From assembly GCA_017397955.1 (NCBI GenBank), contig JAFQHL010000020.1:1-43835 (forward strand): 43,835 bases of DNA, given 5' to 3'. The stretch's first letter is position 1; every line of letters begins with the position of its first letter. Positions 4,372-9,568 of the stretch are shown piece by piece. A program made the position numbers and the translations under genes. A model generated the notes under the pieces. It worked only from the letters and a program-made list of their open reading frames with translations, made no database searches and was not told where the DNA came from. Origin of the DNA: Clostridia bacterium. GTDB lineage: Bacteria > Bacillota > Clostridia > Oscillospirales > CAG-382.

Positions 4372-6936
4372 ATGAAAAGAATTCTTGTTTTTTTAATGAC
4401 AGTGATTATGCTTGTTCCTTGCGTTGTGTCTGGTGTTGTATACACTGCATCAAGTGCTAATGTTTCTGCAACGGAAAAAAATGCGTTGTCAAACCTATCT
4501 TACTCTTTCCCGCGGGAAGGTGTGGCAAGTATCACCAACGGTACGATGGTGGCACCCGACCCTTGGGTTGTAAAAAAGGATAATTATTATTACTTTTGCT
4601 ATTCTGGTGGTGACGGTGTGTGCGTTGCATCTACCGACTCTCTTGATAAAGTAATACCCAACGGCAACAAGGTGTATACGGCTCCTGCAGGTACAATGTA
4701 TTCTGCTGAGTATTGGGCACCTGAGCTTCATTACATAAACGGAGAATGGTATATATATGTTGCCGCCGATGACGGTAACAATAACAACCACCGTATGTAT
4801 GTGCTTAAGGGAACAAGTCAGGACCCTACGCAACCCTTCGTTATGGTCGGCAAAATTGCGGATAGCACCGACAAATGGGCAATAGATGCAACTATCCTGC
4901 AAACCGATGACGGCAGGCTGTTCTTTGTGTGGTCCGGCTGGCCGGGCGACACCAACTATGTTCAAAACATATATATAGCTCAAATGAGTAGCCCTACTCA
5001 GATAAGCAGTAACAGAGTGCTTTTGTCCTCACCCTACTATTCTTGGGAAACCGTAGATTCTCCCGATGTTAACGAGGGGCCTGCTGTTATAACCCATAGC
5101 GGCAAATGGGGCAAGGTTAACTATAACGGTACGGTTGGTTGGATCAATCTGGATTATACCGACGCGGTAAGCGGAGTTACCGATAGAAACAACTATAAAG
5201 CCAACACTCAGTACCGCGTTACGCCGGACGGCCTTAATCTTAGGGCATCTCATGATGCAAGCAGTACGCTGTTAGCTACCTTGCCCAAGGATACCGTTGT
5301 TACTACTATCGAAATAAGCAAGACCTATCACATAGTATATTCCGCAAGCGGTAGCTGGACGGATGACTATTGTATGGGTGTGCTTACCTTGAGAGACGGC
5401 AACTTCCTAAACGCCTCCTCCTGGACAAAATCCTCTACACCTTTGGTTAGCAAATCAAGCGCGGCGTACGGTCCCGGTCATTGCAGCTTTACAAAGAGCT
5501 ACGATGATACCGAGGATTGGATAGTGTACCATGCAACGGCTGTATCGGGCTCCGGCTGGGACAACAGAACCGTGCGTTTCCAAAAGGTTGGCTGGAACGG
5601 TGATTTCCCCGTGGTTTCTACCCCTCCGTCTGCAGGCAGTACTGTTCAGTTGCGCTATGACGGCTTGCGCCGCGTTGATGTAGGCACGGATTTTTATGCT
5701 AACATAGTACATAAAAGCGGACTGTGCGTTACTGCGGTAGGCTCTAACATTCAGGGCGAAACAGCAACCGGTGATAATAATCAGCTTTGGAGATTTACAA
5801 GAAATGCCGACGGCACATATCTTATAACATCCGCTGTTGACAGCCGCGCAATTGACGTATCCGGCGGCGGCGGTCACTACAACAACGGCAACAATATAGG
5901 GCTTTGGACTGCAACTGGCGACCATCCGCAAAAGTGGAGTCTTATGATAGACGACCAAGGCTATTTCCGTTTTAAATCCCATGGCGGTAAAACCGTATTT
6001 GACCTTTATAACAACGATTCTACCCCGGGTACAAACATACATCTTTGGGAGGAACACGATGGCGACGCACAGAGATTCGTGTTAAAGTTCAGCTCCCTTA
6101 ATCTTGGCGAAGAGTTTGACGCAACCCTAAAAATGGAGACAGTTGACTTCTATGTTCAATCTAAAAATTCCGTTGTTAGCATAGGTACTCCCACGGGCGG
6201 CGCAGAACAGTCCTGGCATTTTACCCGCAACGGCGATGGTACATATAATATACGCAACAATGCCGACGGCAAAATGCTGGATGTTGTAAACGGTGCGGGA
6301 ACGGTAAACGGCACGGCGATTATTACGGGCAACCAAGCCAACAGCCGAAACCAGCGTTGGACCATCCATTCCTCCACTAACGGCTCCTATACAATACAAA
6401 CGATTTGCGGCGGCAGAGTGTTGGATGTTCCACAGGCAAACTTTACGGATGGTACAGCCTTGCAGATATACGACCGTAATAATACTGATGCACAGCGTAT
6501 AGTCATTACTTTAGTCAGCAATTTTGCGCTGAAAGATGATGTAAAAGATGTGCTTACCGAAAAGTATGTGAAAATATATAGCGAAGGCATTACCGCCAAA
6601 AACACATCGGATAAGTTTAAGTGCGAAGTTACCGTACTTGACTTTAACGGTAATGCGGTAGCAGACGGTATTCATATTGGCACGGGCTATACTGTTGTTC
6701 GGTACGGGTATCAGGGCGAGGTGCTTAATTCCGTTAAAGTTATCATCCCCGGCGATGTTACCTGTGACGGTAGCGTGAGCACCACGGATATGGTAGCAGT
6801 GCGGAAAATGCTTTACGAAACCGTACCCTACGAGTTGTTGTCCCTAGCGGCGGATGTTTCCGGTGACGGAGTTGTCAGCACCACCGACTTGTTAACTCTA
6901 AGAAAACACTGCGACGGCTCTAATTTGCTTTATTAA
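4372..6936 (+). CDS. Secreted GH43 glycosidase with two ricin-type lectin domains and a C-terminal dockerin
   Basis: The protein has 854 residues. Order: signal peptide (1 to about 30); GH43 five-bladed propeller (about 58-420); two beta-trefoil ricin-type lectin domains (about 440-575 and 588-715, with QxW-like QLWRF, QKWSL and QRWTI motifs); a beta-rich linker domain; type I dockerin (about 790-850) with two calcium-loop repeats (DVTCDGSVSTTD and DVSGDGVVSTTD). The GH43 triad is visible: base D63 (APDPW), pKa modulator D172 (AIDATI) and acid E235 (NEGP). The later GPGH motif at 367-370 is also typical. GH43 enzymes act on arabinan, arabinoxylan or xylan side chains; the substrate is not resolved here. 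The catalytic domain is split by a 72-residue insert right after the acid residue. The dockerin implies attachment to a cohesin scaffold. Confidence 0.88.
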   Translation: MKRILVFLMTVIMLVPCVVSGVVYTASSANVSATEKNALSNLSYSFPREGVASITNGTMVAPDPWVVKKDNYYYFCYSGGDGVCVASTDSLDKVIPNGNKVYTAPAGTMYSAEYWAPELHYINGEWYIYVAADDGNNNNHRMYVLKGTSQDPTQPFVMVGKIADSTDKWAIDATILQTDDGRLFFVWSGWPGDTNYVQNIYIAQMSSPTQISSNRVLLSSPYYSWETVDSPDVNEGPAVITHSGKWGKVNYNGTVGWINLDYTDAVSGVTDRNNYKANTQYRVTPDGLNLRASHDASSTLLATLPKDTVVTTIEISKTYHIVYSASGSWTDDYCMGVLTLRDGNFLNASSWTKSSTPLVSKSSAAYGPGHCSFTKSYDDTEDWIVYHATAVSGSGWDNRTVRFQKVGWNGDFPVVSTPPSAGSTVQLRYDGLRRVDVGTDFYANIVHKSGLCVTAVGSNIQGETATGDNNQLWRFTRNADGTYLITSAVDSRAIDVSGGGGHYNNGNNIGLWTATGDHPQKWSLMIDDQGYFRFKSHGGKTVFDLYNNDSTPGTNIHLWEEHDGDAQRFVLKFSSLNLGEEFDATLKMETVDFYVQSKNSVVSIGTPTGGAEQSWHFTRNGDGTYNIRNNADGKMLDVVNGAGTVNGTAIITGNQANSRNQRWTIHSSTNGSYTIQTICGGRVLDVPQANFTDGTALQIYDRNNTDAQRIVITLVSNFALKDDVKDVLTEKYVKIYSEGITAKNTSDKFKCEVTVLDFNGNAVADGIHIGTGYTVVRYGYQGEVLNSVKVIIPGDVTCDGSVSTTDMVAVRKMLYETVPYELLSLAADVSGDGVVSTTDLLTLRKHCDGSNLLY
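5107..5322 (+). other. SH3b-like insert inside the GH43 domain, apparently circularly permuted
   Basis: Residues 246-317 interrupt GH43 sequence that otherwise reads straight from HSGK (242-245) to TYHIVYSASG (318-327). The insert first carries the C-terminal half of a bacterial SH3 domain (WGKVNYNGTVGWINLDYT, 246-263). A linker follows, then the N-terminal half of one (YRVTPDGLNLRAS...LATLPKDTVVTTIEIS, 281-316). Joining its end to its start would give one complete ordinary SH3b domain. Confidence 0.7.
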
Positions 6937-7021: not shown

Positions 7022-9568
7022 TTATGCGCCTAATTCTTTTCTTAAAATCACAAGGTCGGTGGTATTAACTGCCAAGTCAAGACTTGGGTCAGCGGCTTTT
7101 CTCATCAGCTTCGAAAGCTCGTTACCGTCGGCGATGTGCTTTCTCAATATCGCATAGTCGGTGGTGGAAATAGCGGCATCTCCGTTTATATCGCAGTAAA
7201 GCACGGTGGTACGGCTTTCACCGTTGCAGTTGATAACCCAGCCCGTGCCTATAACAGCGGTGTCAGCTACAGCAGCTCCCTCCGCGTTGGTAATGCTTAT
7301 ATCGTATTTGAACAACAGCTTTAGGTCCGCCGCCGTATTTCCAACGCTAAAGCCCGTAAAATATTCATCGCCCAAGATATAGCCTTCGGAAACAGCGCTG
7401 TCTTTCAGCTCAAGCTTAGCGGGGGATATTACATTGAAGGTGGTATTAAGTATGGTGTGGGCCTTTGGGGAAGAACCGTTAACCGTTTGTATCTGTACCT
7501 TAAGGGTGTAAGTGCCTGTCGCAAGCGCTTCAAACTTTATGTCTTTTGCAGCCGACAGGGCGTAGCTGGTGGTGTAAGGATTAGCAGTATGGGTGGCAAC
7601 CGCATTACCTTCAGAATTGTTAACCGTTGCGGTAACGCCGTACATCCCGGCATGGGAAACAACATTCCCCAGTGTAAAGGGCGTACCCTCAATCAGCTCC
7701 GTGGGCAACGCTCCATTCACTTTCGCCCAAGCAGCATAGAAGGTTACAATATCTCTGTCTACAGAGGTGGAAGCGGAAATAGAGCAACCGTCTGTATATG
7801 TCTTTAAAAAGTATCCCGTGGTGTCATTACCGGAAGCTATCCATTTGTCGCCTAGGGTGCTGTTATCTTTGTAGCACCAAGAGTTGTCAGAACGTCTGAA
7901 AGCTATCCAACCCACAAAGGTATAGCCCTCACGGGTGAAGGTGTTGGTGCTGATTTTAGTGGAGGTGCCGTATACTATTTTGGTGTCTGCCATAGTACCC
8001 GTACCGCCGTTGGCATCGTACTGTATGTAATAGGATTTTGTGCCTGTGCTGTTTGGGGTCCACTGAGCATAACAGGTAACCACATCGCCGTCGACAGTGG
8101 TGAGTGAGGAAACAGTACGCATATCTTCGTACAAAGCAAGTTTTGCTCCTGCGGGCTGGCTACCCTTGATGTACCAGTTGGTACTGCCGTCTGCGTTGAA
8201 GTACAGCCACTTGCTGTCGGATTGCCTTGTAAGATACCATCCTGCAAAGCTGTAGCCGCTTCTTGTAAAGTAATTGGGGCGTAGCTTGTTGGAAACACCC
8301 CTTATGTGTATGGTCTGGCTCATCTTGTAGTTGCCGGAACTGGAGTTAGTACCGCTGTCCGTACCGCCGTTGGCGTTGTATTTTACCGTATAAACTACAG
8401 AGTTTTCGTCAACTATGGGGGTGAAATCACCGCTGCCGCTGGTGTAGCTGAGGGAGTAAACACCCTCGTAACTTGCAACGGGAGAGGCGTTGGCGTTGAT
8501 GTACATCTTCAAATCGCCCGTGGTCCCTTGACCTGTGCGGAAGCCTACGGACTCTATCTCCAAATCGTTACAGCCTGTATCGGCTGCGGTAAGATAAAAA
8601 TTAGTTTTTGTGGGGTGCACAAGGGTGGTTTTGTTGGTGGAGAAGTCCATGCGAGCATCGGTGAGCACGTCGCCCACATAAAATGTTATAATAACATTGG
8701 TATTGATGGGGGAATTGGGCTTGAACATGGGCACATATATGGTCTTTTCGTTGGAATTGTAGAAAAAGCCTTGGTTTACCCAAGTTTCCATATTTGCGTA
8801 AGTGCCTGCGGAAGAACTGCTTTTTGCGAATATGGCGTTACGCTTATCAATGGTAAAGATTTTATAACAGGTAATCTTAGTAGGGCTTGCGGAGGAGCCG
8901 CCTGTCGCGGTATCCGCAATCTTGCAGTAATAAAAAGTCTCGCCGTTTTTGATAAGCAAATAGAAGTAACCGCCGGAGTGCTTGTATTGGCGCACGCTGG
9001 AAGCAGACATTGATGTGCCGTTTGTGTTTACCAAATCAAAGTAACCTGTAAAATAAAGGTTAGTGCCCGATATTTTAAGCCTTGTCAACGCCTTGCCGGA
9101 TTTGCCCGTTGCCACAAACATATAATTAACGCTGTCTGCGGTTACAACCAAAAGGTCATTAGCGTGGCCGCAACTGTTGCAGGCGCTGGTGGAAGTGGCG
9201 GAGGTGCTTGAGTAATAGTTCATATAAGATACCGCACCTGTGTTTGCGTTGGTGCGGGCAATGGAAACATAGGTATCATCGCTGTTGCGCTTGGCGGTGT
9301 AGATATAGGTAGTGCCTACATTCATGCCTTGCATGGATGTACAGTTTGTACCGCCCACGGTCTGGTTGGCGTGTAAGGAAACAAGCTTTGCTTCCTTCAT
9401 AGTCCATGTTGTATACCCGTTATAGGAGTATTTAGAGCTTGTTAAAGGGAGTTCAATTTTAGCCTTTGATTCTGTATTCACAGATATATTTGCCGCCGTA
9501 ACCGCAAGGGCAGGGCAAAGCAAGCATAGGCATAGCAACACAGAGACGATACTCACAAACTTTTTCAT
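7022..9568 (-). CDS. Secreted dockerin protein with InlB-type B-repeats; N-terminal domain unknown
   Basis: The protein has 848 residues. A signal peptide (1 to about 26) precedes a Thr/Ser/Asn-rich, beta-rich domain of about 350 residues, possibly propeller-like (MQGMNVGTTYIYTAK, GHANDLLVV), that I do not recognise firmly. Two InlB B-type (Listeria-Bacteroides) repeats follow, about 395-505 and 512-620; each runs from YNANGG or YDANGG through GYxFxGW to AxW. A beta-sandwich region and a dockerin end the protein (about 788-848, repeats DINGDAAISTTD and DPSLDLAVNTTD). The second calcium loop is less canonical. AAGGAGG supports the ATG start, and a consensus promoter lies upstream. It probably binds carbohydrate or a surface ligand on a cellulosome-like complex; no catalytic motif was recognised. 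Confidence 0.8.
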   Translation of the reverse strand: MKKFVSIVSVLLCLCLLCPALAVTAANISVNTESKAKIELPLTSSKYSYNGYTTWTMKEAKLVSLHANQTVGGTNCTSMQGMNVGTTYIYTAKRNSDDTYVSIARTNANTGAVSYMNYYSSTSATSTSACNSCGHANDLLVVTADSVNYMFVATGKSGKALTRLKISGTNLYFTGYFDLVNTNGTSMSASSVRQYKHSGGYFYLLIKNGETFYYCKIADTATGGSSASPTKITCYKIFTIDKRNAIFAKSSSSAGTYANMETWVNQGFFYNSNEKTIYVPMFKPNSPINTNVIITFYVGDVLTDARMDFSTNKTTLVHPTKTNFYLTAADTGCNDLEIESVGFRTGQGTTGDLKMYINANASPVASYEGVYSLSYTSGSGDFTPIVDENSVVYTVKYNANGGTDSGTNSSSGNYKMSQTIHIRGVSNKLRPNYFTRSGYSFAGWYLTRQSDSKWLYFNADGSTNWYIKGSQPAGAKLALYEDMRTVSSLTTVDGDVVTCYAQWTPNSTGTKSYYIQYDANGGTGTMADTKIVYGTSTKISTNTFTREGYTFVGWIAFRRSDNSWCYKDNSTLGDKWIASGNDTTGYFLKTYTDGCSISASTSVDRDIVTFYAAWAKVNGALPTELIEGTPFTLGNVVSHAGMYGVTATVNNSEGNAVATHTANPYTTSYALSAAKDIKFEALATGTYTLKVQIQTVNGSSPKAHTILNTTFNVISPAKLELKDSAVSEGYILGDEYFTGFSVGNTAADLKLLFKYDISITNAEGAAVADTAVIGTGWVINCNGESRTTVLYCDINGDAAISTTDYAILRKHIADGNELSKLMRKAADPSLDLAVNTTDLVILRKELGA

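Follow-up and report, generated by a model that had tools for sequence, protein, structure and literature searches.

What is the segment that interrupts the GH43 catalytic domain of a predicted enzyme from a Clostridia bacterium, and how did it get there? The gene lies at 4372..6936 on the + strand of the DNA analysed here, a stretch of 43,835 nucleotides (contig JAFQHL010000020.1 of assembly GCA_017397955.1) referred to below as the window. We are fairly confident that the segment is a circularly permuted bacterial SH3 domain (SH3b), split at a hairpin loop and placed within the GH43 domain shortly after the residue predicted to be the catalytic acid, that its predicted barrel is continuous with two strands of the propeller, and that it likely goes back to a single capture from a tandem SH3b array at an S-G-K turn. 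The interrupted domain is composed as follows.

4372..6936, + strand: open reading frame of 854 residues, GH43 protein with the insert, ricin-type lectin matches and a dockerin (Pfam)
4549..5106, + strand: GH43 catalytic domain, first part, residues 60-245 (PF04616, whole-protein E 4.4e-41; AlphaFold2)
5098..5106, + strand: 5' joint S-G-K (AGC GGC AAA), assignable to either the turn of the host's hairpin or the loop of the SH3b
5107..5160, + strand: SH3b C-terminal half, residues 246-263 (Pfam, genome profile scan, rotation scan)
5161..5208, + strand: linker, residues 264-279, bridging the natural C-terminus and N-terminus of the SH3b, conserved in part (GVTDR.NY)
5209..5319, + strand: SH3b N-terminal half, residues 280-316 (Pfam, genome profile scan, rotation scan)
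5317..5322, + strand: 3' joint S-K (AGC AAG)
5323..5646, + strand: GH43 catalytic domain, second part, restarting at TYHIVYSASG (T318) (homologue alignments, AlphaFold2)

An earlier model-made reading of the letters (the sequence-only reading) had proposed a permuted SH3b at 5107..5322, and these limits held: the insert runs from W246 (5107-5109) to K317 (5320-5322), with GH43 resuming at T318. When the whole protein was compared with SH3_3 (PF08239), two stretches were matched at 26.5 bits, just below the cut-off of 27, the best covering profile positions 1-31 at residues 286-316. The PF08239 scan of the genome likewise found separate halves, the later one first (profile 27-52 at 5086-5157, profile 1-32 at 5227-5322), so that, contrary to the natural order, the C-terminal half precedes the N-terminal half. 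The insert with its flanks scored 31.6 bits in two stretches in the order as present, over the cut-off, and 45.6 bits in one stretch (profile 1-52 of 54) once put in natural order. The same was seen in two diverged carriers of the insert, P0005 (42.0 bits in natural order, 28.5 in the present order) and P0006 (35.4 and 23.0).

Every rotation of the insert was also scored against an SH3b hidden Markov model built from 18 natural SH3b stretches of the window genome and related genomes. The window insert reached 79.3 bits over profile 2-58 at rotations 22-38, which are cuts across most of the linker, while with its ends as present it scored 31.5 bits, near the minimum of 31. The best and present scores were 75.1 and 30.8 for P0002, 67.1 and 29.3 for P0005, and 64.1 and 33.3 for P0006; the maximum among 200 composition shuffles, scored at every third rotation of each, was 9.3 bits. 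The comparison of residues 246-317 in both orders, suggested in the sequence-only reading, thus came out at 79 bits for the natural order against 31.5 as present. By these profile matches the insert is a permuted SH3b derivative and no canonical member of SH3_3: both halves match the family and in natural order form a single match over the cut-off, whereas its halves stand in permuted order, the cut falls in the loop that precedes WGK (of the n-Src type in SH3 naming), and the whole is placed inside another domain.

The fold was predicted with AlphaFold2. In the model of the GH43 domain with the insert, two propeller strands continue straight into two SH3b strands, and the prediction for the insert is a barrel that carries on from these host strands; together with the two profile approaches, this agrees with the placement of a permuted SH3b inside the GH43 domain. 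Four of the five models of the insert alone were confident (83.9-87.4) and the fifth was not (41.1). The linker (residues 264-279) fell below the confidence of the core, with ten-residue blocks at predicted local distance difference test scores of 75 and 86. Among the structure matches listed, none aligns the permuted insert over its full length with a solved SH3b.

The insert is present in other assemblies. Two of the six other genomes of the same genus, the metagenome-assembled genomes (MAGs) of Oscillospiraceae bacterium isolate SIG636 and Clostridia bacterium isolate RGIG1907 (goat cecum), have the insert-bearing gene at 88% identity over 427 residues; in the other four genomes, which are 77-88% complete, the gene had no match at E up to 0.001. 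A protein search yielded six clusters with the insert (P0001-P0006, 100 down to 71% identity), all six in permuted form with the same joints, and a scan of genome contigs, which may not include records of the window's own genome or ones close to it, confirmed two insert loci. When a wider family of permuted inserts was sought by using the insert as a protein query, P0001-P0006 alone came up among 78 candidates of about 470-1494 residues. A scan of 394 genomes of the taxonomic order produced 21 SH3b rows; three are the insert and 18 lie outside the GH43 gene, and the 10 of these 18 that were read are all in natural order, single or tandem. The most diverged carrier, P0006, is listed at 548 residues with one lectin family and no dockerin, its SH3b N-terminal half is drifting, and it may be a partial gene.

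The empty site was looked for in 120 listed GH43 homologues out of 1177 hits and read in the 108 of them that match the pattern N-E-G-P to Y-S-A-S. The hairpin at this place has 12 residues in 93 homologues, 14 in 11, and 85 in the six carriers; a 49-residue hairpin in P0100 was rejected as a mis-anchored match. A GH43 protein of the same taxonomic family (L024 of genome G040, 57% identity) is also without the insert. The same genome holds a 1149-residue frame with three GH43 copies by matched places (L026, contig C37), with an 845-residue frame with two nearby. In a tree of 55 of the 120 listed homologues and the window protein (56 rows, insert columns removed), the six carriers form one clade with support of 100/99, so that one insertion suffices.

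Comparison of the window with the MAGs gave a synonymous divergence (dS) of 0.94 for the host part and of 0.70-0.75 for the insert, with ratios of nonsynonymous to synonymous divergence (dN/dS) of 0.03 and 0.07, respectively; the linker is loosest at 0.16, on 16 codons. The insert is under purifying selection that is weaker than on the host part, as judged from a single divergent comparison, since the copies in the two MAGs hardly differ.

For the origin of the permuted order we looked at natural SH3b domains of the order. One of them (L041, read in fragments only) has TEISGKWGK at the split point, in agreement with the proposal that the domain is split at a loop able to read EIS-GK-WGK, and others have SGKWGK (L051, L079) or, elsewhere, SGDWGK, SGEWGK, SGIWGK and SGVWGK; as the pattern used required S/T-G-x-W, these are no measure of how common the loop is. 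The host hairpin, for its part, ends in H-S-G. A different family of the order has tandem SH3b arrays (L051 of G077, L045 of G262). Cutting one unit loop-to-loop out of an array of this kind, or excising one unit as a circle, would yield the permuted order in one step; the S-G-K turn shared with the host could then guide an in-frame join into the GH43 hairpin after the predicted acid, and the two adjacent, antiparallel insert ends would continue two host strands. Because a natural SH3b with the EISGKWGK split loop exists in the order, it is likely, though unproven, that a single unit of a tandem array was captured once at the shared S-G-K turn.

A DNA search of the window genome for a donor found only the gene itself and no second copy. 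The protein search there gave weak rows elsewhere only, and the natural-order rows listed, apart from the insert itself, are 35-58% identical. Top rows in which host strand B (TYHIVYSASGSW) was aligned to the missing SH3b half were rejected as candidate donors, being the query meeting the insert itself. A tblastn search of the insert with its flanks (92 residues) against 50,697 phage records, made with a phage origin in mind, gave no match. The earlier idea of a capture from tandem repeats at a short SGK identity is plausible in that arrays with the SGKWGK loop exist in the order (L051 and, in part, L041), but no donor copy turned up in the genome. A general form of the capture, in which a turn-to-turn repeat unit enters a beta-propeller already permuted, its adjacent ends continuing host strands and the shared S-G-K guiding the in-frame join, seems to us a somewhat less than even prospect; if true, such hairpin-to-hairpin splicing would be a way in which circular permutants ready for insertion arise in nature.

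Other explanations can be set against the capture of a permuted unit. Duplication with truncation is a general route to permutation, and an SH3b inserted in normal order might have been permuted later in place, by duplication and loss of the outer halves, needing no special donor cut. This would take two in-frame trimming steps that both end at hairpin turns; moreover, six of six carriers are permuted with the same joints, and no intermediate appeared in the protein search or in the 10 rows read of the 18 outside the GH43 gene, so we consider it unlikely. That residues 246-317 are ordinary propeller sequence, a possibility raised in the sequence-only reading, is rejected because the other listed homologues with a readable site have a hairpin of 12-14 residues there. 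The same reading gave an assembly chimera as its main alternative, and in the window genome the insert is indeed known from one contig; a misjoin is nonetheless practically out of the question, the insert and its joints having been recovered unchanged in position from MAGs assembled separately and from the protein clusters, at an insert dS of 0.70-0.75 between the window and the MAGs. The sequence alone would be compatible with a domain swap, in which the SH3b halves pair with partner halves of another molecule and no single permuted barrel forms, and the 16-residue linker is modelled less confidently than the core. The monomer model is confident in the whole domain, however, as are four of the five models of the insert alone, and we regard a swap as very unlikely.

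Where the permuted SH3b lies relative to the active site could be judged from the predicted catalytic residues, whose positions were counted along the alignments to AtAbf43C.

4558..4560, + strand: D63, predicted general base, aligned with D168 of AtAbf43C (counted along alignment ranges)
4885..4887, + strand: D172, predicted pKa modulator, aligned with D283 of AtAbf43C
5074..5076, + strand: E235, predicted general acid, aligned with E344 of AtAbf43C

The profile, the propeller fold and the Asp/Asp/Glu triad all place the protein in GH43, with the three catalytic residues conserved. In the AlphaFold2 model, E235 (model residue 206) and the joint (model residue 217) are both on one continuous predicted strand (203-222), the joint following E235 by 11 strand residues, towards the opposite strand end, which would place it at the far end of the blade. 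With a strand rise of about 3.3 Å per residue, the two would be some 30 Å or more apart. The D168, D283 and E344 triad of AtAbf43C was confirmed by mutagenesis (PMC12493170), and in another GH43 enzyme the -1 subsite is at the bottom of a pocket at the propeller 'top' (PMC4356313). The SH3b barrel is therefore probably, with moderate confidence from the model, on the face opposite the catalytic pocket. The sequence-only reading had put it next to the active site, and a role there as a substrate-binding wall is suggested by the mere 11 residues between the acid and the insert; the separation along one strand and the pocket at the propeller top speak against this, and we give it little credence.

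The other domains of the protein point to its setting.

5701..6471, + strand: ricin-type lectin matches, best stretches 444-569 and 612-700 (Pfam)
6748..6906, + strand: dockerin type I, residues 793-845 (Pfam)

The 854-residue protein also has a signal-like stretch at its N-terminus (by eye), and an NCBIfam search found nothing beyond one lectin model, at a score far below its cut-off. From its domains it is predicted to be a plant-sugar-cutting GH43 enzyme, and it is likely to belong to a dockerin-based set. At E up to 0.01, dockerin type I is matched 90 times in the window genome (G000, 1.9 Mb), with one match marked under the cut-off and some frames holding two. Cohesin matches number five, none of them strong (E 1.9e-10 to 6.6e-5), and the same search also gives signals in E. 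coli; the dockerin set is dense for a small genome, against few cohesin matches. Seven of the natural-order SH3b proteins that the genome has besides this one are encoded in frames with a dockerin match as well (L003, L004, L005, L011, L012, L013, L015), which makes SH3b a common module of its dockerin proteins. By eye, those seven have amidase-, phosphoesterase- and peptidase-like parts. The insert most likely serves as an accessory module, for binding or as a spacer, that lies off the pocket and would leave catalysis unchanged. SH3b domains elsewhere are reported to bind peptidoglycan, and by analogy a cell-wall or glycan ligand would fit, a suggestion made with low confidence.

Among the closest solved structures are the GH43_26 exo-1,5-alpha-L-arabinofuranosidases SaAraf43A (3akf/3aki) and AtAbf43C (9nxg), which have the hairpin without the insert (alignment: 9nxj, AtAbf43C domain), while the window protein has lectin and dockerin domains in addition. 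In tandem SH3b arrays such as L051, a loop-to-loop unit would have the order of the insert, but every domain in the arrays read is in natural order; ten SH3b domains are reported for a C. perfringens autolysin (PMC8470621). Circularly permuted inserted domains are known in RNA polymerase, in HABAS topologies (PMC11515920; remark in PMC13114784), in another fold and another host. Engineered circular permutants of the alpha-spectrin SH3 were made and their folding studied (PMC2965948). They resemble the insert in that the SH3 fold tolerates joined ends and a cut loop, and differ in that they were made in the laboratory from a eukaryotic SH3, were opened in its RT loop or its distal loop, and do not sit inside an enzyme. 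Among the open-access papers listed in the literature searches, PMC5906684, PMC6403190 and PMC8470621 included and subscription papers outside the scope, no permuted SH3b and no SH3b inside GH43 was seen.

The gene looks like a natural case of domain insertion and circular permutation together in one enzyme core. Since homologues that lack the insert are available along with six diverged carriers and SH3b relatives in natural order, the acceptance of permuted domains in other folds becomes testable, the same kind of SH3b being open to comparison free, in natural order, and spliced. As the carrier is a dockerin enzyme, its SH3b, if it lies off the pocket, could mark a site not seen before for accessory modules in GH43. 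Finally, the convergent neighbour of the gene (7022-9568, - strand, 848 residues) has Listeria-Bacteroides repeats and a dockerin, and two proteins at 58-966 and 1006-2091 of the window, with no Pfam match at E up to 0.001, show CxxC zinc-ribbon-like motifs by eye.
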